DNA from: a virus | Virus record (IMG/VR): IMGVR_UViG_3300032163_000041 | Location: 1 to 40,123 of that record | Reading direction: 5' to 3' (one strand) | Length of the DNA stretch: 40,123 bases | Notes under the pieces: generated by a model | The model's database searches: none | What the model was told of the DNA's origin: nothing | What the model saw: only the letters and a program-made list of their open reading frames with translations | Program-made: the position numbers and the translations under genes | Part shown: positions 22,901 to 38,373 of the stretch, in pieces | Position numbering within the stretch: the first letter of the stretch is position 1 | Layout: each line of letters opens with the position of its first letter

Positions 22901-24933
22901 GGACGGTCGCGGAGGTTCATGAACAGTTCGCACCGATCCGGGCTTTGCTTGCACAGCAGACGGTTGACACGGTGATAGACGCCATCAGCACGGAGATAGG
23001 GCTTGCCGACGATGAGTTAGACCTACCCGGAAGCGGCGAGGGAACGAACTACATCAGAACAACGCGCCGGGTAATCGAGCGGGCCGATGGTAGCGTCGTG
23101 GACGCGCCGCTACAGCCGACTGTGCAGACCGGGGACGGTTACGGCCAGATCGGGAGGCCGGTTGCGAATCCAACAGGCGACGGAGGGGCGTTCACTTCCT
23201 GCGAGATCAATGACGCGCTTGTTCCTACGACGCTAACGACGTTCCACGGAGTGACCTTTCTCGAAGCCGGATCAGGCGGGCCGACGCGAATATGGGTCAA
23301 GATCTTGACGGCGGATGGTGGAGTGGCGGCGCTGTCTCCGATCGCGGCCGCGTTCGGAGGCGGGAGCATTTGGACGCGATCCATCCGCCCTAGCCAGGTT
23401 GGGCTACACACGAGGAGCATTGTGGTATCGGGTAGCATCCCTGTATTGCGGATCTTCGTTTACGGAACCTACGAAAAGAACGTCGGAGAGGATTGGTTTT
23501 ACGTCGGCATCGCCGAAGTCGACTGGCAAGGAATTATCGGGCCTAACCCCGTCGAAATAGTGGCAAGGCCATGGGACAATCTCGGCGTGGCGGGATCGGC
23601 AACAGGCATGGCCGGTTCTGGTTCGATGTTCTGGAACGAGGTAAACGATACGCTTTACTATGTGACGCATGAGGACGGACAGACGCGGATCTATTCTGTT
23701 GGGTTGCCGGATTGGGATGCTCTGGTAGCGCCCGTGCTGACGTTGGAAGCAACGCTGTCAGGGTACGAATACGCCACGGGATTAACCTACATCCCGGCCG
23801 ACAAGAATCCGCTCGGCAACAATACGGCGCGGTACATTCTGGCAGCGCAGAGAGTCTCGGACGAGCGCCCGATCCTGGTAATGCTCGATACGTCGTTCGC
23901 GGACGTAGGCGCGTCCGTTGACAGCCAGTTCCCCGTGCTTGGGCTTGGCTTCGTCCAATCCCACGCCTACCTGTGGGGATTGTCGGAGCCTGCATCGTTC
24001 CTGCTTGGCGGCTCGGGCCCGGGCGCGGCAACCGAGAACGTAGTCCACACGTTCGATCCACAGACGATGGGGAATCTCCCGGTCGGAATCTGCGCGATCT
24101 TCGATATGTACCTACAGCATCCGAGGCTGTCAGGGATGATCTCGGACGTGAAGCTGAACGGCACGTCATGGTCTGCGAGCAATTACCTTTTCGACGATCA
24201 AGGCAACTTCCCGCGCCTCTCGTTCGAGACGTTGCTCCATGCGACGGATCAACTCACGGCCTCGTACAACTTCCTGTACGCGGTTACTAACGCGGTGCTT
24301 GGAGGCAAGACAGCATCGGAGGCGCTGGAATCGGCCGCGATGGCGGCGTGCTTCGGCGTGTGGATTGATGAAGATGACGTGTTCCACGCGGAGCCAAAGG
24401 GCCGGATTCGACCTTCCAATATGCTGCTGACAACCGGAGGCTCTGGATTCGGAGTCGGTGCGGCCGGGTCTGGATTGCCAAACCTGAAAACCATCGAGTT
24501 TGGTGCTGGGCTTGGAACGCTGAAAAACACGATCCGATTCGAGATGGGGAATCCCTACGATCCCGGCGGGGATGCGGTTATCGTTTACCGGGACGTCTCC
24601 GCGCAGCAGCCGTCTACGAATGAGTACGTCAACACGCTTGACCTGTTCGACGTGCGCGAGTTGCAGCTATCGAATCTCTGGATGTTTGCGCGGCAGGACG
24701 TGCTTGATCTCTGCGACATTTATCTTGCCTACTACGATCTCAAAGCAACAGGGTCATTCGAGGCGCTGCTGCTTGCCAACTTGCGGCTGGCGGATACGGT
24801 CTGCATCCGGTCCCACTTCGATCAGATCGGGCCGGGCGAGAGGTCGCGCCCGATTGGATCGTGGTTTCAGATCATCGGCATAACGAGAAACTGGCAGGCA
24901 TACACCGTCAGCGGGGAGGTCCGAGAGTTATGA
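19957..24933 (+). CDS. Giant tail hub / receptor-binding protein with LamG-like domain
   Basis: A 1658-residue protein with a GTG start. Domains in rough order: an N-terminal beta-type region to about residue 500; a concanavalin/LamG-like jelly roll at about 520-720 (YESFES start, WIHVAGYWSG, ELIVNG, then a closing strand), a carbohydrate-binding fold; a hub-like domain at about 760-1000 with YARLKVTF, and a VDDEIIAYATWD ... RGQLGTVAEVH segment as in tail hubs; a long beta region; and a C-terminal hub-closing part (LKNTIRFEMGNPYD). It probably contacts the tail tube end and recognises a surface sugar. It ends in an ATGA overlap. Confidence 0.7.
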   Translation: MPTIPTVTLPEPSPTALVALRNMVGRQMAFYLYLFDWFVRTDSKQDWKYGATTTGGTADLDPATRTAATIRRWQAGDRTLRTPEYGGVAVTDPTYADAISIPDPAPCDQRGQDFDSATVAVDAETVDARISAKALLQCVDADKGRIYATDWPNLTGWTNGTTGGGFGGAVNALDPRLQIVHSASVAGTEKSRWTSYDTAQAMVGKILTIPIQKNGAPSADSDKGALVFSKAQNTANDPLYDGGAGFNGLEIGVKTQTGSPTNVWYATAWLNGVSTALTLSANPDDGDAVVVVELTGPSGGSHYLRVRVDGTEIFNGTIGVELSGGAWYVNMVNRSKTTDSRDVIFGTSDPRGLRIFSETVLHFAGLDPNMLAAICAQDGTVWHTETADGSGNADIDIDASLGGTNYIETGNVPVPCSLRLKDTDGVVIQRTQPFGLCNDTDASEQPTGVYGGDTVRFAKVLGAAQYQSIWQGSEWWSAIYDSLMPSGWDRAAEWGRLLFDDAFLRLIHSLGLVNAPISNTLLLYESFESAASVRGTGGAVVGSRFDTGKHGRAVYSGPADYVSYPASVIDMTEGWFAAWVSVAQDGTLHDWTPTGAPQVLFAQGDEGFIEMYLSPSADQIVFRCDANETTTTLTHDVTADEKAAGWIHVAGYWSGATFELIVNGTSRHVGTPNIPSAVDYVHIANGADLAAGAEIAVDKAVLMSGPVGMTYPNLYGLWALSYSIAVSETPDDLLQTSVPTWTVLDPILPLFDVLNPQRARYARLKVTFNDENEYYPLDADPFASQLTTPTGAYVDAVEPHARFRLGAHAIISRGTSRRQLEEKGTIGVFTSGGYNYSCVLNNEDGWANLNRHDGVFNNNQILNATLAVVAGPVLDDETEEVYRQGLFFVDDWKASAPNRTFTLNAHDRWRSIADKSLQDGISYLAAAMTASGTEDVQLEDNPQTLGFTAAPGYAQVDDEIIAYATWDAGAQLFKDVTRGQLGTVAEVHEQFAPIRALLAQQTVDTVIDAISTEIGLADDELDLPGSGEGTNYIRTTRRVIERADGSVVDAPLQPTVQTGDGYGQIGRPVANPTGDGGAFTSCEINDALVPTTLTTFHGVTFLEAGSGGPTRIWVKILTADGGVAALSPIAAAFGGGSIWTRSIRPSQVGLHTRSIVVSGSIPVLRIFVYGTYEKNVGEDWFYVGIAEVDWQGIIGPNPVEIVARPWDNLGVAGSATGMAGSGSMFWNEVNDTLYYVTHEDGQTRIYSVGLPDWDALVAPVLTLEATLSGYEYATGLTYIPADKNPLGNNTARYILAAQRVSDERPILVMLDTSFADVGASVDSQFPVLGLGFVQSHAYLWGLSEPASFLLGGSGPGAATENVVHTFDPQTMGNLPVGICAIFDMYLQHPRLSGMISDVKLNGTSWSASNYLFDDQGNFPRLSFETLLHATDQLTASYNFLYAVTNAVLGGKTASEALESAAMAACFGVWIDEDDVFHAEPKGRIRPSNMLLTTGGSGFGVGAAGSGLPNLKTIEFGAGLGTLKNTIRFEMGNPYDPGGDAVIVYRDVSAQQPSTNEYVNTLDLFDVRELQLSNLWMFARQDVLDLCDIYLAYYDLKATGSFEALLLANLRLADTVCIRSHFDQIGPGERSRPIGSWFQIIGITRNWQAYTVSGEVREL

Positions 24934-25400
24934 GCCCGGAACAAGAGGAACGGTTATTCAAAAGCATCGGTAGCCTGGAGTCGGGGCAAAACGAGATCCA
25001 CCATCGGATCAACCGATTGGCGGATGACGTTGAAGAGGTGACGAAGGCGACGGCGAGAACGCGGGATGCGGTGGAGTCCTACGCGACGAACACGGTTACG
25101 AGGATCGTTGCGCTGGAACAGGCGGCGGTTCCGAAGGTGGAAACCGGGGCGACGAACCGTGAGGATCGAGATGCGTTGGAGGTCGGTCGGACGTTGAAGG
25201 GGTTGCCAAAAGTCCTGACGTTGGCCGGAAAGAACGTGCAGGCGATAGTGCTTCTATTGATCGTCTGTCTATTGGCGTGGCGCGAGCTACGCGGACAGGC
25301 GCAATCGAGCCAGCCGACAAGACAGGCGGCGACATGGGGGCCAACGGCTCCCGCAGAGAGCGGCCATCGGCACTTTCGCCCGATGACCCCTTCGGAGTAG
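24930..25400 (+). CDS. Coiled-coil membrane protein (XhlA-like layout)
   Basis: A 156-residue protein starting at the ATGA overlap. Residues 3-75 are coiled-coil-prone; one membrane helix lies at about 103-118 (AIVLLLIVCLLAW); the tail is Pro/Ser-rich. This resembles XhlA-type accessory lysis proteins, but the location just after the tail hub also allows a tail-tip anchor. Function unproven. Confidence 0.5.
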   Translation: MSPEQEERLFKSIGSLESGQNEIHHRINRLADDVEEVTKATARTRDAVESYATNTVTRIVALEQAAVPKVETGATNREDRDALEVGRTLKGLPKVLTLAGKNVQAIVLLLIVCLLAWRELRGQAQSSQPTRQAATWGPTAPAESGHRHFRPMTPSE

Positions 25401-25409
25401 GATGCGACG

Positions 25410-25787
25410 ATGAGCGGAACATTGATCCCAATGCTCGGAGTGATCCCGTGGATTGTCGGTCGGGACATGACGATTGACTTCACGATTCTGGACGGGGGCG
25501 GCGAGCCGTTCCCCATGACCGGAAGTTGCGATCATGCGTTTATCGTGAAGGTGAACAAGCGGGACGCGGACGATCAGGCGATCCTGCACAAGACGGGCGC
25601 GTGCTGGACGGTGACGGACGGCCCGAACGGAATCATTACGCTACAGATCGGCGCGGAGGATCGGAGCGCGGCGGCGGTAGACGGTCGGCTTTACCCGGCG
25701 GAAGTTTGGTTCAAGAATTCCGGAGGCAAACAGATTTCGGGCTGGCTTGGTTCGATGCTGGCCCAGATTCCCGTGAGGCGAGCATGA
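25410..25787 (+). CDS. BppU N-terminal-like baseplate/tail protein
   Basis: A 125-residue beta-sandwich protein. The pattern GRDMTIDFTILDGGGEPF, a VxVNKRDADDQ strand, then GIITLQIGAEDRSA and YPAEVWFKNSGG, resembles the N-terminal domain of phage upper baseplate (BppU) and fibre-attachment proteins. It may link fibres or tip proteins to the tail. An ATG with GATGCGACG upstream rather than a strong site. Confidence 0.55.
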   Translation: MSGTLIPMLGVIPWIVGRDMTIDFTILDGGGEPFPMTGSCDHAFIVKVNKRDADDQAILHKTGACWTVTDGPNGIITLQIGAEDRSAAAVDGRLYPAEVWFKNSGGKQISGWLGSMLAQIPVRRA

Positions 25788-26188
25788 GCGCTGCACTTCA
25801 GGTCCAGGGCTTTGCGAGTGTCGGGACATCGGTTATTACGAACGCATGGAGCGCGAGGGATATCGAGTCGGCGGGACCGGGCGACGGAATCCAAGATACA
25901 GAGATGATTCTCGCTGCGGCGGTCGCTGCCGGGCTGTACGAGGTCAAGGCCGTTGCGACGGCGCAGACGAACGCGGACACGGTGACGGTCGCGGTGACGT
26001 ACAACGATGGCGTTCTGGGATCGTCTCTGACAAAGCCGGTCATGGGGGCGGTAGCTGTCGCCGGGAGCGATTCGGAATCAGGCGCAATCCTGATCCGTGT
26101 CGCGGAGGCGTCAGACATTCGGCTTGCTCTGACGCTCTCGGATCAGCCCGACACGCGGGCGTCGGCGACGCTAAAGAGGGTCGGGTAA
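25784..26188 (+). CDS. Tail-associated protein (134 aa)
   Basis: The ATG at 25784 overlaps the previous stop (ATGA). Ala/Val/Thr-rich and probably beta-sheeted, in the tail-tip block. Its stop overlaps the next start (TAATG). No family recognised. Confidence 0.5.
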   Translation: MSAALQVQGFASVGTSVITNAWSARDIESAGPGDGIQDTEMILAAAVAAGLYEVKAVATAQTNADTVTVAVTYNDGVLGSSLTKPVMGAVAVAGSDSESGAILIRVAEASDIRLALTLSDQPDTRASATLKRVG

Positions 26189-26286
26189 TGCGCTGGCTTC
26201 GGAACGCGCTGGATGATTTGCTGTTTCTGGCGATTGCAGCCGTCTACTTCTGGCGCGAGGATCGGGACCGGCGATGCTCGAACTGA
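26188..26286 (+). CDS. 32-residue membrane peptide
   Basis: ATG shares its A with the previous stop (TAATG). A basic N-terminus, one hydrophobic helix at about residues 10-22 and a charged Arg/Asp-rich C-terminus. Overlaps the next 32-residue peptide by 13 bases in another frame. Possible lysis accessory peptide. Confidence 0.45.
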   Translation: MRWLRNALDDLLFLAIAAVYFWREDRDRRCSN

Positions 26287-26372
26287 TCGTGATTTATTCG
26301 ATTGTCGCGCTACTCGTCACGGCGTTCGCGCTGATGCCGAACGAGCAGCCGCCTTGGAGGCCACCGTTTTGA
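26274..26372 (+). CDS. Second 32-residue membrane peptide
   Basis: ATG at 26274 inside the previous gene. It has one hydrophobic helix at the N-terminus and a Pro-rich end. It is equal in length to its upstream neighbour but oppositely arranged, with the helix first. Together they resemble small holin-type or antiholin-type pairs. Its stop overlaps the TTG of the Thr-rich gene. Confidence 0.45.
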   Translation: MLELIVIYSIVALLVTAFALMPNEQPPWRPPF

Positions 26373-27400
26373 TTCCGACAAATCACTTTTACTTTCGCGT
26401 CTTCCAATCCCATTGGTTCTTTCTGATTGCCGTCTCCCTCATGGCTTGGTTCAATCCGCATGAAGCGAAGCCTGCCGCCACAAACACCCCCACACCGGTT
26501 TCATGCGACGGTACCCTAGTCACCGTAGGAGACGCACTAACTGCTTCCCTAAACGCCCCGGATAACGCCGCAACTACTTATCACTTTCTTGCAGTAGGTC
26601 CTGCTTCATACATAATGCCTTTCGGCGGAAAAGTCGTCGCATGGCGGATCAAACATTCCACCTGTCTCGTTGGGCAAGCAAACACACTGACAATATGGAG
26701 ACTTGTTTCGGGGACAACATATTCTTGCGTCGGTACCGACCAGCAGACAACATCTACTTCGGCAGAATCGGAAACCTTTACCGTTTCAGTGCCCATCAAT
26801 GTTTTATCAGGAGATATAATAGGGATGCAGCGCGTCAATACAGTCAACAACTATGTGGACGGAGGATCACAAGCAGGCGCAAGCCAACAAATCAAGTCCG
26901 ATACAACCCCTGTTGCTTGTATCAATATGAATCTTGCCACAAATAATGCAACACAACGATTACTCAATGTCGTTCTTTGCCAATACTCTACTACATCCAC
27001 GGCAACCGCTACCGCTACCGCCACGTCCACGTCCACGGCAACCGCTACGCATACGTTCACACACACTTCAACGGCGACGTTGACCGATACGGCGACGGCG
27101 AGCGCAACCCACACGTCAACAGCGACGGCGACAAGCACGGCGACTCACACGGCGACGGCGACAAGCACGGCAACGCGAACGGCAACGTCAACCCACACGT
27201 CAACAGCGACGATCACGCGAACATCAACCCGCACGGCCTACCACACGCGAACCGCAACCGCGACGGCGACGGGGCATTGTTGCACGGACACTCCGGTTAC
27301 GAGCGTGACGCCAAGTAGGACGGCGACGCGGACGAAGACGCGAACCTGGACGCGAACGCGGACGCTCACCAAGACGCGAACGCGAACGCCTACGCCATGA
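26369..27400 (+). CDS. Exported Thr-rich repeat protein
   Basis: A 343-residue protein. I choose the TTG at 26369 (TTGA overlap), since it precedes a signal-type helix (FFLIAVSLMAWF, about residues 16-27). Residues about 45-205 are a globular, A/T-richer domain with paired Cys. The rest is a T-A-T/S-T/R-T low-complexity tract, ending TRTRTPTP, of the sort seen in exported linkers of several bacterial phyla. It may be a surface-exposed host-interaction protein. Acquisition from a host gene is likely, given the lower GC of the globular part. Confidence 0.5.
   Translation: MIPTNHFYFRVFQSHWFFLIAVSLMAWFNPHEAKPAATNTPTPVSCDGTLVTVGDALTASLNAPDNAATTYHFLAVGPASYIMPFGGKVVAWRIKHSTCLVGQANTLTIWRLVSGTTYSCVGTDQQTTSTSAESETFTVSVPINVLSGDIIGMQRVNTVNNYVDGGSQAGASQQIKSDTTPVACINMNLATNNATQRLLNVVLCQYSTTSTATATATATSTSTATATHTFTHTSTATLTDTATASATHTSTATATSTATHTATATSTATRTATSTHTSTATITRTSTRTAYHTRTATATATGHCCTDTPVTSVTPSRTATRTKTRTWTRTRTLTKTRTRTPTP
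26998..27398 (+). repeat. Thr-rich codon repeat tract
   Basis: A string of imperfect ACG/ACC/ACA and GCG/GCA/TCA codons. Two 20-nt copies of gcgacggcgacaagcacggc start at 27122 and 27152, a 30-nt period, and a further shorter repeat (cccacacgtcaacagcgacg) appears around 27110 and 27190. In-frame expansion or contraction is expected. Confidence 0.8.
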
Positions 27401-27828
27401 TCGGGATGATCTTGGCGGTCTTGCTTGGCGCGGACGTTCACGCGGCGAGTACCAACACGTTCACGCAGACCGCGACCGAAACAGCAACGGCCACCGTGAC
27501 GGCCACGCATACGACTACGCTGATATTCACGTCCACGTTCTACCCGACGTACACCTTCCAGGACACTTGCCAGCCATGGCCGACCGACACCGCATCGCCT
27601 ACCGTCACGGCAACACAGACGCTGACGATGACGCATACCCGGACGCCGACTCTCGCGCCTCCCCCCGCCGACGCTCACGCTACCTATGACGGCGCGGGAA
27701 CGGGCCTACCAGCGCCTCACGATAGCGATGGGGAAAACCCAAACCGCCGTTGCGAAAACCGCGACAGCACAGGTGCCAGATTGATAGGATCTCCCGTGCC
27801 TCATAACTGGATGCGGGCGACGCCGTGA
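27397..27828 (+). CDS. Second exported Thr-rich protein
   Basis: A 143-residue protein with an ATGA overlap. Residues 1-17 form a signal peptide (MIGMILAVLLGADVHAA). The middle is again Thr-rich; the C-terminal 50 residues are polar and contain an odd Asp/Asn/Arg mixture. It may be a paralogue of the upstream gene's tail. Stop overlaps the lysozyme GTG. Confidence 0.45.
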   Translation: MIGMILAVLLGADVHAASTNTFTQTATETATATVTATHTTTLIFTSTFYPTYTFQDTCQPWPTDTASPTVTATQTLTMTHTRTPTLAPPPADAHATYDGAGTGLPAPHDSDGENPNRRCENRDSTGARLIGSPVPHNWMRATP

Positions 27829-28427
27829 TCCCAGGCCTCGACGTTTCTCATTGGGAAGCAAAGATCCGGTGGGCCGACGTACTGCGGGCGGGGTACTCAT
27901 GGTGCTACGCGAAGGCAACCGAGGGGCTGACGTACACCGATCCGCTGTTCTCGAAACATTGGGAAGACATGAAGGCGGCGGGGATGGCTCGGGGCGCGTA
28001 CCACTTCGCCCGCCCGCAGTTCGACGCGACAGCACAGGCCGATCATTTCGCCAAGACGGCGGGCCTGATGGACGCGAGCGACCTGATGCCGTGTCTCGAC
28101 CTCGAAACTGACGGCAACATGGGGGCGGTCCATACAATCGCGTGGATGCGGAACTTCATGGCACGCGCCGAGAAGCTGTTCGACCGGCCGCTGATGATCT
28201 ACCTCGGCCACTCATTCCTGCTGGAATTTCTCGGCGATCCGCTGATGCCGGATCTCGCAAGCCGCCCGCTTTGGATTCCTCGCTACGGGACAAACTTCCC
28301 GAAGCCCTCCAAGACCTGGCCCAAGTGGACGATCTGGCAGCACAGCGAGGATTTCGAGATCCCCGGCGTCGGGAAGTGTGACGCAAACTGGCTGGACGGA
28401 GATCTTTCCCCATTGCGTGCCGCGTGA
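27825..28427 (+). CDS. GH25 muramidase (endolysin)
   Basis: A 200-residue single-domain enzyme with a GTG start overlapping the previous stop. The glycosidase family 25 signs are clear: GLDVSHW (Asp6), YAKATEG (about 28-34), GAYHFARP (57-64), and the DLE catalytic dyad at Asp92 and Glu94. It hydrolyses the MurNAc-GlcNAc beta-1,4 bond of peptidoglycan. There is no signal peptide and no cell-wall-binding domain, so a holin is needed for release. Length fits the catalytic domain alone. Confidence 0.9.
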   Translation: MIPGLDVSHWEAKIRWADVLRAGYSWCYAKATEGLTYTDPLFSKHWEDMKAAGMARGAYHFARPQFDATAQADHFAKTAGLMDASDLMPCLDLETDGNMGAVHTIAWMRNFMARAEKLFDRPLMIYLGHSFLLEFLGDPLMPDLASRPLWIPRYGTNFPKPSKTWPKWTIWQHSEDFEIPGVGKCDANWLDGDLSPLRAA

Positions 28428-28549
28428 AAGTCGATGGCGGCCGGACCAGCGAAGTGCTTACGGATCGCGGCTGGTCTCTGGCTGTTGCGCTTGCCGCCGC
28501 CTGTCTGATAGGTTTGATTCTGACTTACGTCACGCTTCACGCGAAATAG
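28424..28549 (+). CDS. Single-helix membrane protein (41 aa)
   Basis: GTG start overlapping the lysozyme stop. One strong membrane helix at about residues 18-37 follows a charged N-terminus. Its position makes it a candidate holin or antiholin. The stop TAG merges with the next ribosome-binding site (TAGGAGGCACC), the same 15-nt cassette seen before the tail tube gene. Confidence 0.5.
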   Translation: MKVDGGRTSEVLTDRGWSLAVALAAACLIGLILTYVTLHAK

Positions 28550-28557
28550 GAGGCACC

Positions 28558-28707
28558 ATGCCACCCCAATCCGATCCGAACGCAGCGCCAGCCCCGGCGG
28601 TAGACCTGACCGTGAAACCGCTGGACGAGTACGCCCGCGACCGGCTGAAAGATTTGATCGGCAAGGAAGCATCGCGGGGGGGGCGCGGGTCGCAACAGCG
28701 GCCGTGA
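28558..28707 (+). CDS. Upstream part of a split holin-like frame (49 aa)
   Basis: AGGAGG and ATG as in the tail tube gene. The polar, Pro/Ala-rich N-terminus ends in a helical segment (YARDRLKDLIGKEA), then turns into G/R-rich tail after a run of eight G. A -1 shift at that run would join it to the membrane protein at 28704 to give about 117 residues. Confidence 0.5.
   Translation: MPPQSDPNAAPAPAVDLTVKPLDEYARDRLKDLIGKEASRGGRGSQQRP
28676..28683 (+). other. G8 homopolymer at holin frame junction
   Basis: Eight consecutive G at the boundary of the 28558 and 28704 frames. A -1 shift (or a nine-G tract) joins them. It could be phase variation, programmed slippage or an assembly error. Confidence 0.6.
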
Positions 28708-28910
28708 TTGGATTCGCTGCCGCGCACGCCATCGGCTTGAACGCGGCCGACCACGCCTACCTGTCGGCCGGCATTCAGGCTGCGTCCGTGGCGATTCCGG
28801 TCGTCGTCGGGATTCTACTGCGGAGGCTCGGAGCCTACGCGGTGGAACACAACCCGAAAAGCCAGCCCCTCGCGTGGTTTCAAAAGGCAGTATCTTGGCT
28901 GCCGCTTTAG
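28704..28910 (+). CDS. Two-helix membrane protein, probable holin
   Basis: A 68-residue frame with a GTG start that overlaps the preceding stop. Hydrophobic segments at about 1-14 and 21-39 are followed by an amphipathic C-terminus, as in class II holins. No good ribosome-binding site precedes the GTG, so expression probably depends on coupling or on a shift at the G8 tract. Position right after the endolysin fits. Confidence 0.5.
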   Translation: MIGFAAAHAIGLNAADHAYLSAGIQAASVAIPVVVGILLRRLGAYAVEHNPKSQPLAWFQKAVSWLPL

Positions 28911-28955
28911 CTCCGTCCTCCTAGCTCGCTGCGTCCACGGTGATCGGGAGATCCG

Positions 28956-28993
28956 GCCCGGCCCTCCGCCAGTCGGGGGCCGGGCTTGTTTTT
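28956..28993 (+). terminator. Intrinsic terminator of the late operon
   Basis: Stem GCCCGGCCC (28956-28964) and GGGCCGGGC (28977-28985), nine perfect GC-rich pairs with a 12-nt loop, followed by TTGTTTTT. It lies 46 bases after the last lysis gene and probably ends the packaging-to-lysis transcript. It begins the 334-base gap to 29244, which otherwise holds the operator at 29020, a second terminator and the early promoter. Confidence 0.88.
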
Positions 28994-29019
28994 GCCACAG
29001 CCAGCGCCCGGCATAGATA

Positions 29020-29033
29020 GTAGAGGCCTCTAG
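29020..29033. promoter_or_regulatory. Isolated operator-like palindrome
   Basis: GTAGAGGCCTCTAG contains TAGA-N4-TCTA, the same core as the sites at 29171 and 31079. It sits between the two terminators, 150 bases upstream of the promoter, with no convincing -35 or -10 around it. It may be an auxiliary site for looping or cooperative binding. Confidence 0.5.
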
Positions 29034-29121
29034 CTGGCCTAATAGATGGGGTAGGCGGGGCGGAGGGGCCGCGCCGCGTACCTTTTGACCCCGATCTCGG
29101 AAACCCTGCAAAACATAGGGT

Positions 29122-29150
29122 AATCGGCATACGATTTATTGCCGATTTTT
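29122..29150 (+). terminator. Second intrinsic terminator
   Basis: AATCGGCA (29122-29129) and TGCCGATT (29140-29147) form an eight-pair stem with a 10-nt loop, followed by TTT and overlapping a T-run. It ends 11 bases before the -35 of the early promoter and would insulate it from read-through. Confidence 0.7.
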
Positions 29151-29161
29151 GACGAATTCGC

Positions 29162-29190
29162 TTGACGTTACTAGAGGTGTCTAGTAATAT
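29162..29190 (+). promoter_or_regulatory. Early promoter P1 with operator in spacer
   Basis: TTGACG (29162-29167), 17-nt spacer, TAATAT (29185-29190): a good sigma70-type promoter. The spacer carries the palindrome CTAGAGGTGTCTAG at 29171-29184, three bases after the -35 and abutting the -10. A protein bound there would block RNA polymerase. It drives the small-gene block from 29245. Confidence 0.8.
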
Positions 29191-29244
29191 ACATTCATGG
29201 ACACAGGGAGTCAGTCAACCGGCCTAGAGGCCACAGGGGGAAAC

Positions 29245-29508
29245 GTGAAAACAACGATACGCATCAAGTCGGGAGATCCGATCTACATGGTTACAGATCC
29301 GCAATCGAACACGGCCGTCCTGGAAGACATTTGCGGGCTGACAACGCTCGCCAGCATCGGGCGGCAGGTTCTCGGCGGACTGGACATCTCGAACGAACGC
29401 GCCACGATCTACGTCGGGCGCAATGCCGAGGTAATGGCCAAGGCCGATGCCAAGGCGCGTCTGCTTCGCGTGCGGCTGGCAGCCTACGGGATCGCAGGGT
29501 CGAAATGA
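29245..29508 (+). CDS. Hypothetical protein (87 aa), first gene of early operon
   Basis: I choose GTG 29245 with AGGGGGA upstream. An in-frame ATG at 29197 would coincide with the predicted transcription start of P1 and give a leaderless message; it is less likely. Thr/Ile/Arg-rich N-terminus, then a helical tail. Contains a DxxSNTAVLE-type stretch of unknown meaning. First gene after the promoter, so probably an early regulator or host-takeover protein (inference). Confidence 0.6.
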   Translation: MKTTIRIKSGDPIYMVTDPQSNTAVLEDICGLTTLASIGRQVLGGLDISNERATIYVGRNAEVMAKADAKARLLRVRLAAYGIAGSK

Positions 29509-29717
29509 CCGCCCCGAGGGTCGCCGCGCACAGGCCGGGGCTGCGTAGCCGGTCGGTACACGACGCCACCGACAGGGCGGCAGGGTATCTGGCCGACGCG
29601 AACGAGGCGGCAGAGCGCGGTGACAAGCGCAAGGCAGAGCGGCTTTACGCCAAAGCGCAGTACTGGCAGGATGCGATGAACCGCCGCATGGGGAACGGCG
29701 ACGGGGTGGCGTCGTGA
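29505..29717 (+). CDS. Hypothetical helical protein (70 aa), MTAPRVAAH start
   Basis: ATGA overlap. Helical and Arg/Ala-rich, no recognised family. Its first nine codons are repeated exactly at the start of the next gene, so the two share a 28-bp cassette. Confidence 0.6.
   Translation: MTAPRVAAHRPGLRSRSVHDATDRAAGYLADANEAAERGDKRKAERLYAKAQYWQDAMNRRMGNGDGVAS
29506..29533 (+). repeat. 28-bp gene-start repeat, copy 1
   Basis: Identical to 29715-29742; covers codons 1-9 of its gene except the first base. Only the start codon differs (ATG here, GTG in copy 2). Confidence 0.95.
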
Positions 29718-29971
29718 CCGCCCCGAGGGTCGCCGCGCACAGTATGAGTGATGCGGCGAGGGCTTGTGAACGCTGCGGGGATCTGCTTGACCCGAAGACG
29801 AAAGTATACCTGGAACTGAACTGCTATACCGGGATCTACACAGATCCCGACAAGGTGACGGTTCCGGGCAACGAGTCGCAAGGGCTTTTTTGGTTTGGAC
29901 GCGCGTGCGCGAAGAGGGTACTCGCGAGCGGCGGGTGTAATATTCGTACGCCGAAAGGCGGTGCCCGGTGA
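29714..29971 (+). CDS. Zinc-motif protein (85 aa), MTAPRVAAH start
   Basis: GTGA overlap with the previous gene. It has CxxCGD at about residues 18-23, then a YLELNCYTGIYTDP segment and a final RACAKRVL, a Cys spacing seen in small phage zinc proteins. Shares its N-terminus with the preceding gene. Confidence 0.6.
   Translation: MTAPRVAAHSMSDAARACERCGDLLDPKTKVYLELNCYTGIYTDPDKVTVPGNESQGLFWFGRACAKRVLASGGCNIRTPKGGAR
29715..29742 (+). repeat. 28-bp gene-start repeat, copy 2
   Basis: Exact copy of 29506-29533. A third, diverged version begins the gene at 29968 (MSAPRITAD). Confidence 0.95.
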
Positions 29972-30267
29972 GCGCCCCCCGAATCACCGCCGACATGCTG
30001 GCCGACAAGAAAGCCTGCGCCGATCAAGTCGAGACGTTCCGCAAACTGTTCCCTCGCGGGACGCCGGTCACGCTCGCCGCTGCCAAGCGGTGCGTCAAGG
30101 CCGGGTTGGATCTCGACTGGTTCGCCCAAGCGTTTTTGCCACCGAAGGCATACGCGGACTACTTGGCCAAGCGCGCCCCGCTGCTCGCGGACTACCTGGC
30201 CAAGCGCCACACGCTGCTCGTCCGCGCCTATCGTGCGGCGGGCAAGGCGTCAGGCGGTGCAGCATGA
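29968..30267 (+). CDS. Hypothetical protein (99 aa), MSAPRITAD start
   Basis: GTGA overlap. N-terminus is a diverged version of the MTAPRVAAH module. The middle resembles a short phage protein type with DQVETFRKLFP and a WFAQAFLPP segment. An internal repeat ADYLAKR occurs twice in tandem near the C-terminus. Function unknown. Confidence 0.6.
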   Translation: MSAPRITADMLADKKACADQVETFRKLFPRGTPVTLAAAKRCVKAGLDLDWFAQAFLPPKAYADYLAKRAPLLADYLAKRHTLLVRAYRAAGKASGGAA

Positions 30268-30428
30268 CGCCCGAGGCGTGGATTCTGGTAGCTGTCGCGC
30301 TGGCGTCGGGCTTCATGTTCGGTCTTGGCTACGGCGACGGGCGCGGATTCCGGCGCGGGATGGCACTCGGTCGGCACGTCGGCTCGGAGGCGCTGCGTGC
30401 GGCGGCGCGGCAGGCTGGTGAACGATGA
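30264..30428 (+). CDS. Small membrane protein (54 aa)
   Basis: ATGA overlap. One membrane helix near the N-terminus (WILVAVALASGFMFGLGYG), followed by an Arg-rich tail. Function unknown. Confidence 0.55.
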   Translation: MTPEAWILVAVALASGFMFGLGYGDGRGFRRGMALGRHVGSEALRAAARQAGER

Positions 30429-30760
30429 GAGTCGAACAGGATCGCCTACGCGGAGACGGTCGGCCTCGGATGTTCGGGCGCACGTCCGACGAACATCGGG
30501 CAGAGGCTCGGCGGAATCGAGGCTCGGCGCTGCATTGGATCTCGGTCGGCGAGCGCGATCTGGCTCTCTCGCAACGCGCATTCGCGGATCGGTGCAACGC
30601 CTGGGCGCGTTCGCTCGAACGGATCGAACGCGCTGATGCGGCCCGCGAACGCGAGCGCATGGGCCATCCTCGATTCGAGGACTCGGTGCGCCTCTGCGTC
30701 TCACGCGGAACGATCTCGCCATCCGTGGGACGGCGGCTGATCGCGGAGGCGGGGGCATGA
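30425..30760 (+). CDS. Arg-rich protein (111 aa)
   Basis: ATGA overlap. Very rich in Arg, Glu and Ala, low in hydrophobics, possibly nucleic-acid binding. Its other frames are also open because of the composition, but the overlap and start pattern favour this frame. Confidence 0.5.
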   Translation: MRVEQDRLRGDGRPRMFGRTSDEHRAEARRNRGSALHWISVGERDLALSQRAFADRCNAWARSLERIERADAARERERMGHPRFEDSVRLCVSRGTISPSVGRRLIAEAGA

Positions 30761-30966
30761 GGCCCCTGCGGTTCTGGTTCTACGCGGCATGGTGGCGCTA
30801 CCTGTTGGGCAAGTCTAATAACCGATGGCCGGATCGCGGGCTGGGGGCATATTTACGGCGCGTCGTTTGTCGCGCCCGAGGTCATCCTGCTGGCATCGTA
30901 TTCTTCAATCCGGGCGGGTTGGAGCCCAACATGTCTTGTAGAAACTGCGGCGAGGATGCATCGTGA
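30757..30966 (+). CDS. Basic protein with C-terminal zinc motif (69 aa)
   Basis: ATGA overlap. It begins with a hydrophobic aromatic segment, then RVVCRARGH, and ends CRNCGED. The Cys/His layout suggests one zinc site formed between the middle and the end. Confidence 0.55.
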   Translation: MRPLRFWFYAAWWRYLLGKSNNRWPDRGLGAYLRRVVCRARGHPAGIVFFNPGGLEPNMSCRNCGEDAS

Positions 30967-31073
30967 AGTGGATCGGCTGGCTCTATCTCGCTGGCTGCTG
31001 GGTGTTCATTCTCGCCGTAGTCGTCTGGCCCCTATGCCGGGCAGCAGCACGCGGAGATCAGATTAGGCGTTGA
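30963..31073 (+). CDS. 36-residue membrane peptide
   Basis: GTG overlaps the previous stop. One strong helix at about residues 4-24 (Trp- and Val-rich) and a basic end. Its stop TGA lies inside the -35 box of the second promoter. Confidence 0.5.
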   Translation: MKWIGWLYLAGCWVFILAVVVWPLCRAAARGDQIRR

Positions 31074-31098
31074 CATTCCTAGATGGGTCTAGTAGTAA
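31070..31098 (+). promoter_or_regulatory. Second promoter P2 with the same operator
   Basis: TTGACA (31070-31075), 17-nt spacer, TAGTAA (31093-31098; weak -10). The spacer holds CTAGATGGGTCTAG at 31079-31092, again three bases after the -35 and abutting the -10, the same layout as P1. It precedes the HTH gene at 31129. Confidence 0.7.
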
Positions 31099-31128
31099 GA
31101 AGTCGGACGCAGGAAACGGAGGCACCGA

Positions 31129-31338
31129 GTGGGAAAAGAACTGACAACAGCGGAGCTAGCGAGGCGCGTTCCGTGTGCGCGTGGCACCGTGCAATACTTC
31201 GCCGACGCGGCGAGGGTGAAACACCGCGTGATGGTTCGCGCGGGGGCGCTGTGGAAGATGTGGCCTGCGAACGCTCCCGCAAAACTGCGGGCGGCGCGTA
31301 GGCGCAAACAGAGAGGCGGGCGACGTGGAAACGATTGA
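31129..31338 (+). CDS. Small HTH DNA-binding protein
   Basis: A 69-residue protein with a GTG start and GGAGG upstream. Residues 5-30 (LTTAELARRVPCARGTVQYFADAARV) read like the recognition helices of MerR/excisionase-type winged HTH proteins; the C-terminus is strongly basic. Being the first gene after P2, it is the natural candidate for the regulator that binds the CTAGA-N4-TCTAG sites, which would be autoregulation. It could instead be an excisionase-like or accessory DNA-binding factor. Confidence 0.6.
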   Translation: MGKELTTAELARRVPCARGTVQYFADAARVKHRVMVRAGALWKMWPANAPAKLRAARRRKQRGGRRGND

Positions 31339-31879
31339 CGCAGATACGGGCGAAGTAACCGAAACGGCGCTCGTTACCGCGCCGCTGGGGCCGTCGCCAT
31401 TCAACCGCGAGCGCCCTCTCGTAGAGATTTCGCTCGCGTGTGATCGAGTGTTGGCAAACCTGAGGGACGAGACACGCCCGCTAGACGCGCTACCATCAGA
31501 TACCCACCAAGTCGAGGCGCTGGCGAAGGCCTTCTATGCGTGGTGGAAGGCCTGCGATGCGGCGATTGTCTCTCGGATGCGGGCGCGAAACTCGAAACTT
31601 ATCGGCGACCCACGCAAGGGGCCAGCACTCGCGCTGAAAGAAGAACACGACTACACGTTTGACGAGAAGATTCTGAAGGGGCTGATCGCATTCGTGGACA
31701 AGCCGGACGGCCTGACGGCGGGAGAGTACGAAGGGGCGCTTCGATACACGTTCGATCCGTCCAAGACGGCGCTGAACAATCTGCAAAAGCGCGGCGGCAA
31801 GGTCGCGGAGATCATCGCGCTTGGCGTCCGTGACAACCCACAATACAAACTCGAGCTACGCGGAGGAACGCACAAGTGA
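31325..31879 (+). CDS. Hypothetical protein upstream of recombination gene (184 aa)
   Basis: GTG start overlapping the HTH gene. Mixed alpha/beta, with a central EEHDYTFDEK stretch and a C-terminal region ending in EIIALGV. Tight GTGA coupling to the next gene suggests a shared role. Family not recognised. Confidence 0.6.
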   Translation: METIDADTGEVTETALVTAPLGPSPFNRERPLVEISLACDRVLANLRDETRPLDALPSDTHQVEALAKAFYAWWKACDAAIVSRMRARNSKLIGDPRKGPALALKEEHDYTFDEKILKGLIAFVDKPDGLTAGEYEGALRYTFDPSKTALNNLQKRGGKVAEIIALGVRDNPQYKLELRGGTHK

Positions 31880-33231
31880 CCAACGAGACGGGCAAGGCAA
31901 CCGAGATCCCGATGGTGTCGGCAGAACCGATGCCGACGAACGGTAGCGGGGCGCTGGCGATCCGCGCAAACGAGCCGATGGTCATGGACATTCGGCGCTC
32001 GCTCCCGCAGGCGAAAGCGCAGTTCGAGGCGATCCAGGAGTTTGTCAAAGACGTGCTGAAAGAGTCCGTCGCGGAAGACAAGGAAAAAGGGATCGAGGCC
32101 AAGGACGGCGACTATGGCCGCGTGCCGGGGATCGCAAAGCCGTTCTTGTTCAAGAGCGGTGCGGAGAAAATCGCGGCGCTGTTCGGCTACGCCCCGGTCT
32201 ACGTCACGCTCGAAAAGATCGAAGACTTCGGCGAGCGGGCGGTGAACGGGTTTTTCTTCTACCGCTACCGATGCGACCTCACATCAAAGAACACGGGCGC
32301 GGTCATGGGATCGGGCATCGGATCGTGCAACTCGAAAGAGGAGCGCTACCGATGGGCGCAGACGGAGCGCGTTTGCCCGAACTGCCAGAAGGCGGCGATC
32401 ATCAAGGGCAAGAAGGAATACGGTGGCGGCTGGCTCTGCTTCCAGAAAAAGGGCGGCTGTGGCAACAAGTGGCCGGACGGGGACCGATCCATCGAGAGTC
32501 AGTCCACCGAACGAGTCGAGCGCGAAGCATTCTCGCTCGTCAACACGATTGACAAAATGGCGCAGAAGCGGGCGCTGGTTGCGGCGGTACTGATTGCTAC
32601 CGGCACGTCGGCGCTGTTTACGCAGGACGAAGAGACGGTCGAGGCGTCCGACAAGGGCGCGACCGCGAAGCCCGCGACGGTTGTCTCGGGCGCAACGGCC
32701 AGCCCGCCAGCTACCGAAAAACCAGGGGCGAAAGCGGCACCTGCGGAATCGGCGAGCGGCCCGTTCTGGCGCGAGGCGGCACCGATTGAGGTCGAGCGGC
32801 ACTTCCTGCATCCAGAGGACAAACACGGGAAGTCGAAAAGCAAAAAGGGCGGCGAGTTGCCAGAAGGCTGCCGGTATCAGGTGACGCAAGAGAAGGGCGT
32901 CAAGGGAAAGCCTGGCTACGAGCCAGCGGTCTTTGCCAAGATGGTTGACGCGAACTTGTACGGGGCCGATCCGAGAAACGCCTCCGCGCCGGGACCAAAG
33001 CCCGCGACGGTCGTCTCGGTGGAATCTCCCGCGCACGGCCCGCTGCAAGGCGACAATCTGGACCGGGAGATCGCGCTAGAGATCCGCAAGCGGGGCTGGA
33101 CGCCTTCAAAGGTAACTCTGCGGGCGCACGCGCTCGGCGCACAGGATGGCGAGTGGACGCGGGCCGACGAGGCAATCAAGATGCGCCTGCTGTCTGCGCT
33201 CTGTGATTCGGAAGTCGCGGTGACGGCATGA
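31876..33231 (+). CDS. Putative recombination/annealing protein with zinc ribbon
   Basis: A 451-residue protein with a GTGA start. It belongs to a widespread phage family: YGRVPGIAKPFLFKSGAEKI (about 80-99), FFFYRYRC (126-133), a zinc ribbon (CPNC at 167-170, Cys188, Cys195), and NTIDKMAQKRALVAAVLIATGTSALFTQD (about 223-251). The last block recalls the helix seen in Rad52-like and RecT-like annealers, but I cannot prove this. A Pro/Ala/Lys-rich linker (about 255-300) and a C-terminal helical domain follow. Likely ssDNA binding or annealing in recombination. Confidence 0.55.
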   Translation: MTNETGKATEIPMVSAEPMPTNGSGALAIRANEPMVMDIRRSLPQAKAQFEAIQEFVKDVLKESVAEDKEKGIEAKDGDYGRVPGIAKPFLFKSGAEKIAALFGYAPVYVTLEKIEDFGERAVNGFFFYRYRCDLTSKNTGAVMGSGIGSCNSKEERYRWAQTERVCPNCQKAAIIKGKKEYGGGWLCFQKKGGCGNKWPDGDRSIESQSTERVEREAFSLVNTIDKMAQKRALVAAVLIATGTSALFTQDEETVEASDKGATAKPATVVSGATASPPATEKPGAKAAPAESASGPFWREAAPIEVERHFLHPEDKHGKSKSKKGGELPEGCRYQVTQEKGVKGKPGYEPAVFAKMVDANLYGADPRNASAPGPKPATVVSVESPAHGPLQGDNLDREIALEIRKRGWTPSKVTLRAHALGAQDGEWTRADEAIKMRLLSALCDSEVAVTA

Positions 33232-33767
33232 GCCAACCGAATCCGCCGCAGACCGAGGGCGCACTCGAAAAGAGGTTCCCGGGCATGACGGCGCTGCCGT
33301 GGAGGCTGACGGGACACGGAATCAGAAACAAAGAGGACTCACTGAATAGCATAGAGCCAGCAGGGGCATTAGGCAGATACGTGGCGGTTTTCGGTGGACT
33401 GGACGATGAAGGCGAACGGGTTGACGCAACAGATCAGAACGAGCAGGACGCGGCGGCGGTCCTGCACGCCGTCTCGACCTACGACGCTAGCGCGGAAATG
33501 ATCGCGGCGCTCCGGGCAGTGTCGGCAGAGTGGAAGGCCGAGAGCAAGCGGGCCTCCGAAGATTGCACGGCACTCGGAAACAAGGCGGTTGAGATCGCAA
33601 CGCAAGCCATACAGTTGCGCGATGCGCTGCGAGAGACGCTGGGCTTTTGGCAAGGGATCTTGGCCCCGATGCCGGGGGCTACCGTCGAAATCAACCTCGC
33701 TCATGCGCGGGCATTCGCGGAACATGCGAGCAAAGCCATAGAGCTGGCGCTTGGGATGAAGCCATGA
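33228..33767 (+). CDS. Hypothetical protein (179 aa)
   Basis: ATGA overlap. N-terminal pattern TALPWRLTGHGI ... DQNEQDAAAVLHAV resembles the Ea8.5-like/TPGPWR phage proteins of unknown function, with DAAFIxxAV before a long helix. The C-terminal half is a coiled helix. Early-region accessory. Confidence 0.6.
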   Translation: MSQPNPPQTEGALEKRFPGMTALPWRLTGHGIRNKEDSLNSIEPAGALGRYVAVFGGLDDEGERVDATDQNEQDAAAVLHAVSTYDASAEMIAALRAVSAEWKAESKRASEDCTALGNKAVEIATQAIQLRDALRETLGFWQGILAPMPGATVEINLAHARAFAEHASKAIELALGMKP

Positions 33768-33868
33768 CCCAGCCGACAGCAGGGGAGACGCGGGTGAACG
33801 CAGAGCGGTTCAGGTCCACGAGGAAGCCAACGCAAACATCCGGCGCGTCCGGGAGGGGGTTGAAGTGA
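33764..33868 (+). CDS. Possible 34-residue peptide, PTAGE start
   Basis: ATGA overlap before, GTGA after. Thr/Arg-rich. Its codons ccg aca gca ggg gag recur at the start of the gene at 35383, in a 16-bp match. Could be a linker peptide. Confidence 0.35.
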   Translation: MTQPTAGETRVNAERFRSTRKPTQTSGASGRGLK

Positions 33869-34188
33869 ACCAAACGAACCAGCAAGGCGACGTGATCTTC
33901 GTCCGCGAGGCTATCCCCGCAGACGCGAAAGTCAGGCAGTCGAATGTCGTCAGAGAGGGAGAGGGGCATCACGCCCACGTCCTCGTCGGAGACGAGGTCG
34001 AGTTGTTTGAGAAAGACGGCACGATCTACGCCCGCGTCGGACATGGTGGTGCCACCATCGAGCACCAACGGGTCGGCGGCGGGCCGGGCGAACACCGGAC
34101 GCAGACCATCGCGCCTGGAGAGTACAGGACGCCAGGAGTGGTCGAATGGAACCCGTGGGAACAGGAGGCACGCCGTGTCCAGGACTAG
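33865..34188 (+). CDS. GDV/HHAHV-type partner protein
   Basis: A 107-residue beta-rich protein with a GTGA start. It shows QGDVIFVREA at the N-terminus, GEGHHAHVLVGDEVELFEKDG in the middle, then an EHQR, and ends PGEYRTPGVVEWNPWEQEARRVQD. Proteins with this layout (GDV...TGHAH...HEEH...PGxYxVxxQREY) often precede DUF6745-type proteins in bacteria; the pair has no known function. The His cluster looks metal-binding. Overlaps the next gene by 14 bases. Confidence 0.6.
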   Translation: MNQTNQQGDVIFVREAIPADAKVRQSNVVREGEGHHAHVLVGDEVELFEKDGTIYARVGHGGATIEHQRVGGGPGEHRTQTIAPGEYRTPGVVEWNPWEQEARRVQD

Positions 34189-35386
34189 CGGCGTTCCGGC
34201 CGAATACATCGAGGCGTGTACGTATCCCGGTAGGCTCAACGAGGCGGAGGTCCAGACCGCGCTCGAACATTACGTGTCGAGCCTCGGGATCTCGCGGGAG
34301 GTAAGGCGGCTGCGGAGGGGATGGACGGTTGAGGACGACACTAATCTGCGTGCGTGGGTTGGAACGCTGGCGGCAGACGTTTGTGATCTTCTCGACGCCC
34401 GCGACGCCCTCGACGCCCGCGACGCCCTCGACGCCAGCGACGCCCGCGACGCCCTCGCCGCCCGCGCCGCCCGCGCCGCCCGCGCCGCCCTCGACGCCCT
34501 CGACGCCCGCGCCGCCCGCGACGCCCGCGACGCCCGCGACGCCCTCGCCGCCCGCGCCGCCCGCGCCGCCCGCGCCGCCAGCGCCGCCCTCGACGCCCGC
34601 GACGCCCGCGCCGCCCGCGCCGCCCGCGCCGCCAGCGACGCCCTCGCCGCCCGCGACGCCCTCGACGCCCGCGACGCCCGCGACGCCAGCGACGCGCTGG
34701 AACGGTTCGCGCGATGGGCAGTAGCAAAATCTGGCTGGTGGTATTCATTCGATATATCGTGGATTTCGACCACGCACATCGGAGCGCGGCAAACTGGTAA
34801 GATTTTGCCGTGGGCGAGGCACCTCTACGATTCGTTCTTGGTCGGAGCATGGTATTTGATCTGGACCGACAAGGTGATCTATTGGGTGGCGAAGCCGACA
34901 GTCCACAAGACTGCCGAGAGACGCCTGCACAACGATCATGGCCCCGCAATCGTGTCGGACGCAGAGGATCTATATTTCCTCAACGGGGTGCTCGTGGAGC
35001 CGTGGCTGGTCGAGACCCCGGCAGATAAGTTGGACCCGGTGAAGGTAATGGCGTTGGAAAACGTGGACGAGCGGCGAGAGGGAATCCGCAAGGTCGGAAT
35101 AGATCGGATGCTAGAAAAACTGGACGCCCGGATCGTGGACACGTGGAGCTACCAGACCGAGAACGGCGAAGTGCATCCGTACGAACTGTATGCTCTGAAA
35201 CTACCAGGGGCCGAGGCAGAGTCGAAGGCGCTGAAGATGCGGAATCCGTCGCTTGGCGTGTATCACGTCGAGTTTGTCTGGCCAGGAGTCAAGACGTGCC
35301 GTGAGGCGCTGGCTTGGCGCAACACGGGCGGATCGCAGGATAGTAAGGTTCTCGCCGCATGGACGCCGCCTCCGGTGCTGACGTGA
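34175..35386 (+). CDS. DUF6745-like protein with Ala-rich 34-unit repeat
   Basis: A 403-residue protein. Start GTG 34175 with AGGAGG upstream; the frame is open further upstream only in the shadow of the partner gene. An N-terminal helical region is followed by 34 three-residue units D/A-A-R/L/S, then a Trp-rich segment (ARHLYDSFLVGAWYLIW) and a C-terminal domain with RRLHNDHGPAIVSDAEDLYFLNGVLV and then EEN/ERR-like positions (ALENVDERREGIRKVG). That arrangement is typical of DUF6745-type proteins, whose role is unknown. Confidence 0.55.
   Translation: MSRTSGVPAEYIEACTYPGRLNEAEVQTALEHYVSSLGISREVRRLRRGWTVEDDTNLRAWVGTLAADVCDLLDARDALDARDALDASDARDALAARAARAARAALDALDARAARDARDARDALAARAARAARAASAALDARDARAARAARAASDALAARDALDARDARDASDALERFARWAVAKSGWWYSFDISWISTTHIGARQTGKILPWARHLYDSFLVGAWYLIWTDKVIYWVAKPTVHKTAERRLHNDHGPAIVSDAEDLYFLNGVLVEPWLVETPADKLDPVKVMALENVDERREGIRKVGIDRMLEKLDARIVDTWSYQTENGEVHPYELYALKLPGAEAESKALKMRNPSLGVYHVEFVWPGVKTCREALAWRNTGGSQDSKVLAAWTPPPVLT
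34394..34699 (+). repeat. 34 x 9-bp in-frame tandem repeat
   Basis: 34 units of GAC/GCC GCC CGC/CTC/AGC encode D/A-A-R/L/S. Third positions are C in almost every codon, except the final DAL unit which uses GCG and CTG, which implies recent expansion. All six frames are open across it. Confidence 0.92.
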
Positions 35387-35979
35387 GCGATTCGCCGACA
35401 GCAGGGGAGGGGTCTTGCCGGGAGTGCAAGGGCGCGGGCCGCTGGGATAGGTCGGGACTCGTCAAAATGGCCTGCCCCCGCTGCACCGGCACGGGCAAGG
35501 AACCTCGCGGCGAAGCAAGGGACGGAGGGGAAGGTGGTGGATCAAGGCGCGGACCAACCGGAGCCCCTGGCTTCGGAGTAGCGCAGCCCGTACCAAGTGG
35601 GCCTGCTACGCAGTCCACCACCGACCCATCCGCCCCTCGCGGCGAAACCGAATCTCCGTGGGCGGAGAAGGAGTCGCCGTGGTGTCCGGAATGTGGCGGA
35701 ACGGGCCGAAGCGGCCAGCAGGAACATCATCGCGGCTGCGGAACGGACTCCGGGGAGTGCAACTGCGGCGGCGTCGAAGTTCAATGCGACTGTGCCGGAA
35801 CGGGACTCTCGCCGCGCGTCCAAGTCTGCCTAGACGCCCTTCGCGGCGTGCCCGACCCCGCAAAGTTGCTCGCGGCGGCGGCTGCCATGTTCGAGGAGAT
35901 CGAAGCAGTGGGCTCCGTTGCGAACGGCACGTTCGACGCCTACCGCTCCGCCCGCCGCTCCCAGGAGGATATGGGATGA
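35383..35979 (+). CDS. DnaJ-type zinc-motif protein without J domain
   Basis: A 198-residue protein; GTG 35383 overlaps the DUF6745 stop. Cys-rich motifs of the DnaJ type: CRECKGAG, CPRCTGTG, CPECGGTG and CDCAGTG. A Ser/Pro/Gly-rich linker separates the first and second pair. The end is helical. In DnaJ this domain binds unfolded protein and zinc; no J domain is present. Confidence 0.65.
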   Translation: MSDSPTAGEGSCRECKGAGRWDRSGLVKMACPRCTGTGKEPRGEARDGGEGGGSRRGPTGAPGFGVAQPVPSGPATQSTTDPSAPRGETESPWAEKESPWCPECGGTGRSGQQEHHRGCGTDSGECNCGGVEVQCDCAGTGLSPRVQVCLDALRGVPDPAKLLAAAAAMFEEIEAVGSVANGTFDAYRSARRSQEDMG

Positions 35980-36188
35980 GCGCCTGGACCGTCAGCGAAG
36001 AGACAACGGAGGTTGGACGGCTGCGGCTAGTGATGAGGGTTTGTCGGTTCGGCTGGTACACGCACGTCTACAAGGGCCGCACAAAGATTCACATGATCGC
36101 GCCGGATCAGAACCAAGTTCGCGCGGGGATCGCCGCGATCCTTTGGGCGCGGGAGTGGAACCAAAAGAACGAGGGAGGTGCGCGATGA
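35976..36188 (+). CDS. Hypothetical protein (70 aa)
   Basis: ATGA overlap; the longer upstream frame is a shadow of the DnaJ-like gene. A beta-strand-rich pattern (VGRLRLVMRVCRFGWYTHVYKG) followed by a helix. Unknown. Confidence 0.55.
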   Translation: MSAWTVSEETTEVGRLRLVMRVCRFGWYTHVYKGRTKIHMIAPDQNQVRAGIAAILWAREWNQKNEGGAR

Positions 36189-36454
36189 CGCCGAACGAGA
36201 GAGCGCAGAGCGTCACGGCGATTCTGAAGCTCTCGCTCGGAATCGAGTTGAACGCGGAGGACTGGGAGTTCATCGCCGGAGAGATTGAAGGAACCATCCA
36301 CTCGGCGGTCCTGGCCGAGAGAGAAGCCTGCGCGACGGAGGCGGATGAATGCAGACGAACCGGCAATAGAGCCTGTGAGTGCGCAGCAGCAATCCGCTCC
36401 CGCTCCGAACCAGCGGCGAGCGTCACAACGGAAAAGGAGGCGAGACATGGGTGA
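36185..36454 (+). CDS. Hypothetical protein (89 aa)
   Basis: ATGA overlap. Helical, with a CATEADECRRTGNRACECAAAIR stretch holding four Cys. Such Cys-rich helices with RREACAAAA-like pattern are common in phage accessory genes. Overlaps the next gene by 8 bases. Confidence 0.55.
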   Translation: MTPNERAQSVTAILKLSLGIELNAEDWEFIAGEIEGTIHSAVLAEREACATEADECRRTGNRACECAAAIRSRSEPAASVTTEKEARHG

Positions 36455-37946: not shown

Positions 37947-37986
37947 CCGAACCTGCGGCGACCCCCGGAACCGGAGAGCGGAGAGA

Positions 37987-38343: not shown

Positions 38344-38373
38344 GCGAGACAACGTAATAGGAGGCCAGCCGAA

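Follow-up and report, generated by a model that had tools for sequence, protein, structure and literature searches.

Placing a repressor site inside a promoter is a common way to shut genes off, and a dyad that fills the spacer between the -35 and -10 hexamers occupies the classical position for repression, as in the lambdoid operators. The operator of phage 434 is 14 bp long. The repressor sites of L5-type mycobacteriophages (stoperators) lack symmetry and occur in large numbers throughout the genome, the operators of Arc (Arc/MetJ-type ribbon-helix-helix) carry TAGA half-sites, and MerR-type activators act from spacers of 19-20 bases. We analyzed a 40,123-base stretch of viral DNA, IMG/VR record IMGVR_UViG_3300032163_000041 (hereafter the window), in which two palindromes of the form CTAGAN4TCTAG lie within two promoter-like elements, A and B. 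These two sites are probably operators of one phage-encoded repressor that blocks both promoters. The architecture is ordinary; the operator sequence is new in a known kind of arrangement, and no occurrence of it, written as CTAGANNNNTCTAG, CTAGAN4TCTAG, TAGAN4TCTA or TAGANNNNTCTA, was found in the literature searched.

Promoter A (29162-29190, + strand; promoter score 9/12) has the -35 hexamer TTGACG, a 17-base spacer and the -10 hexamer TAATAT, and reads TTGACG-TTA-CTAGAGGTGTCTAG-TAATAT. Promoter-like element B (31070-31098, + strand) has the -35 hexamer TTGACA, a spacer of the same 17 bases in length and a weak -10, TAGTAA, and reads TTGACA-TTC-CTAGATGGGTCTAG-TAGTAA; its -35 overlaps the stop codon of a preceding small open reading frame (ORF, 30963-31073). 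The operator-like palindromes, 1 in the spacer of A (29171-29184) and 2 in that of B (31079-31092), both strandless, start 3 bases past the -35 hexamer and abut the -10, showing that the two sites lie exactly between the hexamers at equal offset, as a preliminary description of this DNA had stated. The two spacers were identical at 14 of 17 bases, with a simple binomial probability of approximately 1e-6 per pair. Palindrome 1 could be extended to 29168-29187, giving perfect 8-base arms (TTACTAGA-N4-TCTAGTAA). Exact CTAGAN4TCTAG occurred in the window at palindromes 1 and 2 only, in line with the earlier inspection by eye, which had seen no further full palindrome of this type. Promoter A was the sole site in the genome to pass one promoter filter; element B failed it because its -10 is without the last T.

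A third, strandless palindrome, GTAGAGGCCTCTAG (29020-29033, with the core TAGAGGCCTCTA at 29021-29032), was located between a terminator-like hairpin (28955-28986) and promoter A. The shared TAGA-N4-TCTA that had been reported for it was confirmed, and TAGAN4TCTA occurred 3 times in the window. Over this third site there was only a weak promoter-like match (TTGCCA-18-GATAGT, 9/12), and support for its regulating a promoter was not obtained. All three symmetric sites were between 29020 and 31092, i.e., within 2.1 kb, and all three were outside genes according to the gene list drawn up in this analysis, in which approximately 8% of the window was non-coding. The sequence GGCCTAGAGGCC at 29222-29233, downstream of promoter A and ahead of the GTG start of the next ORF, may be a further half-site; TAGAGG was present on the + strand of the window at 29021, 29172 and 29225 only.

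Shuffle controls were run on the unique 39,996 bases of the window. The core TAGAN4TCTA, observed 3 times, had a shuffled mean of 0.064, and none of 1000 shuffles reached 3. The full site CTAGAN4TCTAG (2 observed, shuffled mean 0.005) and the full site with its upstream pentamer, TTGACN4CTAGAN4TCTAG (2 observed, shuffled mean 0.000), were likewise found as many times in 0 of 1000 shuffles. We infer that a phage-specific dimeric repressor binds the 14-bp dyad between the -35 and -10 hexamers. As the dyad fills the gap between the hexamers, binding of a dimer there should be incompatible with binding of RNA polymerase. The repressor would thus block the access of a host sigma-70-type polymerase to promoter A, which precedes the gene block at 29.2 kb, and the same protein would close promoter B, which precedes the block at 31.1 kb leading on to replication-type genes. 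Both blocks are presumably expressed early, and the third site probably serves as an additional place for the repressor to bind.

Relatives of the window were found through two of its genes. The helicase-methyltransferase (helicase-methylase; 2-2278, + strand) had relatives in 915 phage records, with a best identity of 56.6% among the matches listed, and a 451-amino-acid protein matching PHROG 10048 (31876-33231, + strand; function unknown in PHROGs) had relatives in 15 phage records. When the PHROG 10048 protein was used as the query, 23 distant loci were retrieved at 25-51% identity. Nineteen of these, from 18 records, were searched for TAGAN4TCTA, the near-copies L023, L026, L038 and L044 being left out. 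The scan for the site, which had returned three cores in the window, gave one site in 3 of these 18 distant records and more than one in none, indicating that the operator sequence is phage-specific and not common to the relatives.

One of the distant relatives carried the same design with another motif. Contig IMGVR_UViG_3300048591_000384 (L031; 17,578 bases) has two genes in common with the window, the helicase-methylase (39% identity) and the PHROG 10048 protein (44%). The palindrome-like motif TCACGN2TGATA occurred exactly 3 times in its 17,578 bases, and the reversed control pattern 0 times. All three copies were at the -10 end of a 17-base spacer in a TTGACA promoter; those at 5794 (+) and 1627 (-) shared one offset, and the copy at 5167 (-) was two bases further upstream. 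The 5167 promoter reads TTGACA-TTC-TATCACGCATGATA-TAGAAT and contains the palindrome TATCA-CGCA-TGATA, which is exactly the 3 + 5-4-5 geometry of the window. The helicase-methylase homologue follows the 1627 promoter directly, and a gene lying between the promoters at 5167 and 5794 (5454-5708, - strand) encodes a Cro/CI-type helix-turn-helix (HTH) domain, HTH_26, which scored 28.3 bits (cut-off 22). Equal-spacer promoter pairs agreeing at 58% or more were confined to the window and L031 among the 24 sequences compared (the window plus the 23 loci); the L031 pair agreed at 12 of 17 bases (simple binomial probability approximately 1e-4 per pair). A phage-encoded repressor is favored mainly on account of L031, in which the design recurs with a different motif and two of the sites flank a Cro/CI-type gene. 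In a separate locus, L033, a consensus promoter (TTGACA-17-TATAAT, 165-193) was observed 2.3 kb upstream of the PHROG 10048 match; its spacer and -10 hold TATATA-CAGTGT-TATATA (dyad p 0.067). A relative of the window's 29968 ORF (41% identity) is present in L033 too.

The preliminary description had left the choice between a phage-encoded repressor and a host factor. If a host transcription factor (e.g., a stress or SOS-type regulator) bound these sites, the phage would read the state of its host. No clear repressor gene was recognized in the 61 distinct ORFs covered by the Pfam scan, out of 309 mechanical ORFs of at least 50 amino acids in the window, and this is what a host factor would lead one to expect. 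The layout was also found in unrelated sequences. TTGACN4CTAGAN4TCTAG was present in 19 viral stretches, and TANNNT followed it in 4 of them (L004, L009, L012 and L017). In L004 and L012, which have the same sequence, the site falls within a reverse ORF, and both were regarded as chance occurrences; the L009 site precedes a small ORF with sub-cut-off HTH matches only, and the L017 site precedes an ORF without an HTH match. A control palindrome, CATGA/TCATG, set into the same promoter frame and followed by TA, was found in 10 stretches, and in four of these (L051, L052, L053 and L058) the -10 matched TATAAT at 5 or 6 of 6 positions. The layout therefore occurs with other palindromes, showing that the palindrome sequence of the window is not special. 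At L053:1048-1072 we observed TTGACAATACATGATATATCATGTATAAT, which has the same layout with a different palindrome and lies directly downstream of an HTH_26 gene (1095-1304, - strand, 34.1 bits).

In bacterial and archaeal genomes the pattern TTGACN4CTAGAN4TCTAGTA gave 5 matches in 84,980 species, one per organism in five organisms; the pattern was strict, and the host of the window may be unsampled. Three of the matches (L045, L048 and L049) were inside long ORFs, L046 looked like a promoter, and L047 adjoined a gene that appeared PadR-like from reading its translation. L046, together with the viral L009 and L017, carries the promoter-plus-palindrome layout with a good -10, which would suit a host factor. 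However, five scattered single matches, three of them in long ORFs, do not indicate a host regulon. A host-wide regulon was thus not seen, the phage repressor was the better supported of the two possibilities given the design of L031, and binding by a host factor is unlikely.

Somewhat less likely again is that the palindrome serves as a recognition element for activation, used by a phage activator or a modified polymerase, or has another role in promoter recognition. The weak -10 of element B would need help, and the close agreement of the A and B spacers would fit such a role. Against this, a site taking up the whole spacer is classical for repression, promoter A has a usable -10, and the spacers here are 17 bases long, shorter than those from which MerR-type activators work.

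A number of results weigh against repression through these sites. The -10 of element B is poor, the site is present in only two promoters, and no clear promoter accompanies the third site. When 25000-40123 was scanned with looser criteria, 4 promoter-like sites were returned, with A included and B left out, compared with 3.2 in shuffles, indicating that promoter score alone does not set either A or B apart. When up to 2 mismatches were allowed, 6 sites were counted against 5.89 expected, which is no enrichment. In a search-anything control, which accepted any repeated palindrome with 5-base arms and the same 5-mer equally far upstream, at least one case was found in 32 of 100 shuffles; the argument therefore depends on the identity of the shared 5-mer with the -35 consensus, on the presence of a third copy and on the placement of the sites outside genes. 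A DNA search with the 5-kb gene at 19957-24933 and searches with the terminase and the 31129 protein (the product of the first ORF behind element B) found no close relatives. Spacer dyads (p 0.05 or better) were counted at 6 of the 56 promoter-like sites across 17 loci of relatives, with approximately 3 expected, and 2 of the 6 were those of L031 itself, showing that palindromes in the spacer are not a general feature of the group. L031 is a single case, picked after viewing many. Finally, no Cro/CI, MerR, TetR or ribbon-helix-helix DNA-binding domain scored above the Pfam cut-off in the 61 ORFs scanned, where a diverged HTH, or an ORF outside the 61, could escape.

That two short palindromes and a near-match landed in promoter-like spots by chance, as the search-anything control, the relaxed pattern and the shuffled level of promoter-like sites in the region would allow, is very improbable, since two full sites or three cores were reached in 0 of 1000 shuffles (which upholds, beside the 32 of 100 in that control, the earlier claim that the matching layouts are unlikely by chance), both full sites are equally spaced behind TTGAC, and three of three sites are outside genes.

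For a phage-encoded repressor, the leading candidate gene is 31129-31338 (+ strand), directly behind operator 2, although we propose it only tentatively. It is the first ORF behind element B and encodes a candidate regulator of 69 amino acids with a weakly HTH-like N-terminus. The protein had a weak, HTH-like match to PHROG 3282 (sigma factor; E 0.0014) and a match to Pfam NinH below the cut-off (E 0.0078). No homologues were found in viral contigs, phages or plasmids, and the fold model was poor (predicted template modelling score, pTM, 0.34) and gave no Foldseek match. The suggestion that this protein is the binder thus gained no support from these results. It is conceivable, at a lower level of confidence, that a repressor of a family not yet recognized, possibly the 31129 protein, closes the twin promoters via CTAGAN4TCTAG in a phage without a recognizable CI/Cro or integrase.

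The other ORFs considered gave no better candidate. The first ORF behind promoter A (29245-29508, + strand) has a GTG start after AGGGGG and an in-frame ATG at 29197; no homologue or family was found for it in the phage search or in Pfam. Upstream of element B, the 111-amino-acid ORF 30425-30760 (+ strand) resembled an XRE HTH protein by eye. This resemblance was not confirmed: Pfam (to E 10) and NCBIfam gave no support, a PDB sequence search returned one irrelevant match (E 0.43), and a low-confidence model (predicted local distance difference test, pLDDT, 68.8) had no Foldseek match with E <1. Homologues of this protein in phages were not found either. For a hidden minus-strand repressor near 29 kb, the ORFs 28815-29111 and 28921-29130 were considered and judged to look like shadow ORFs; no Cro/CI domain was listed for them in the batch Pfam scan, in which the best 25 of 29 families were listed. 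Weak matches were seen in ORF 6421-6888 (AsnC-type HTH, E 0.032, 14.5 bits against a cut-off of 27) and ORF 25526-26188 (TetR C-terminal domain, E 0.029, 14.8 bits against a cut-off of 22). The Pfam library used does find HTH_26 in L031 and L053. No ribbon-helix-helix family was among those listed for the 61 ORFs, and such small proteins are easily missed. The PHROGs scan, which covered 40 window proteins, reported neither an integrase nor a CI-type repressor, in agreement with the earlier statement that neither gene was seen. ORF 35359-35979 matched PHROG 6060 (anti-termination protein Q-like; E 9.9e-05, residues 16-50), and a possible role for it would be that of a second transcription regulator, or one modifying RNA polymerase.

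The window begins and ends with an identical 127-base repeat (1-127 and 39997-40123) and is thus probably an entire phage genome, assembled circularly and either circular or circularly permuted. All assignable genes were on the + strand. Genes for an HNH endonuclease-like protein, the terminase, the major head protein, tail proteins and the tape measure lie upstream of the 28955-28986 hairpin. This terminator-like hairpin (+ strand) carries a T run and stands behind the upstream gene block; 14 such hairpins were counted in 25000-40123 against 12.9 in shuffles, and a single hairpin is not significant. After the tape-measure block the order was the hairpin, the operator region, the PHROG 10048 protein and a replication-initiation-like protein (38397-39290, + strand). 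A 28-base direct repeat was observed at 29506-29533 and 29715-29742, because of which the neighboring small ORFs 29505 and 29714 both begin MTAPRVAAH. ORF 3529-4800 matched glycosyltransferase family 87 (27.6 bits against a Pfam cut-off of 25) and overlaps a longer ORF, 3666-5051.

Repression at A and B would give an orphan phage lineage a defined operator that can be put to the test. Together with L031, the window suggests that an operator can change in sequence between distant relatives while its position in the promoter is retained, as would be expected were each phage to evolve a repressor with a specificity of its own. Should the 31129 protein prove to be the binder, it would add a small regulator family for which no homologue was found in the searches made.

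Among known systems, the L5-type stoperators resemble the window in that the phage carries several copies of a repressor site, here a putative one. However, the window has three symmetric sites within 2.1 kb and not a dispersed set of asymmetric ones. The similarity to the lambdoid CI/Cro systems of the 434/P22 type is closer: a short dyad operator with a variable center overlaps the -35/-10 region of promoters, as at A and B (which would here be early promoters), and one operator sequence recurs at several promoters. Unlike those systems, the window has no recognized Cro/CI gene in the ORFs scanned with Pfam and no integrase among the proteins scanned with PHROGs, its assignable genes are all on one strand, and it has neither an adjacent-operator cluster nor a divergent promoter pair; A and B have the same orientation and do not flank a recognized repressor gene as divergent early promoters do in the lambdoid layout. 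L031 differs from the window in the sequence of its motif (TCACGN2TGATA), in the two-base shift of one of the 3 copies, in its divergent promoters and in the recognizable Cro/CI-type gene between two sites. In both, a dyad-like motif occupies the -10 end of the promoter spacer, and one L031 copy has the identical 3 + 5-4-5 geometry.

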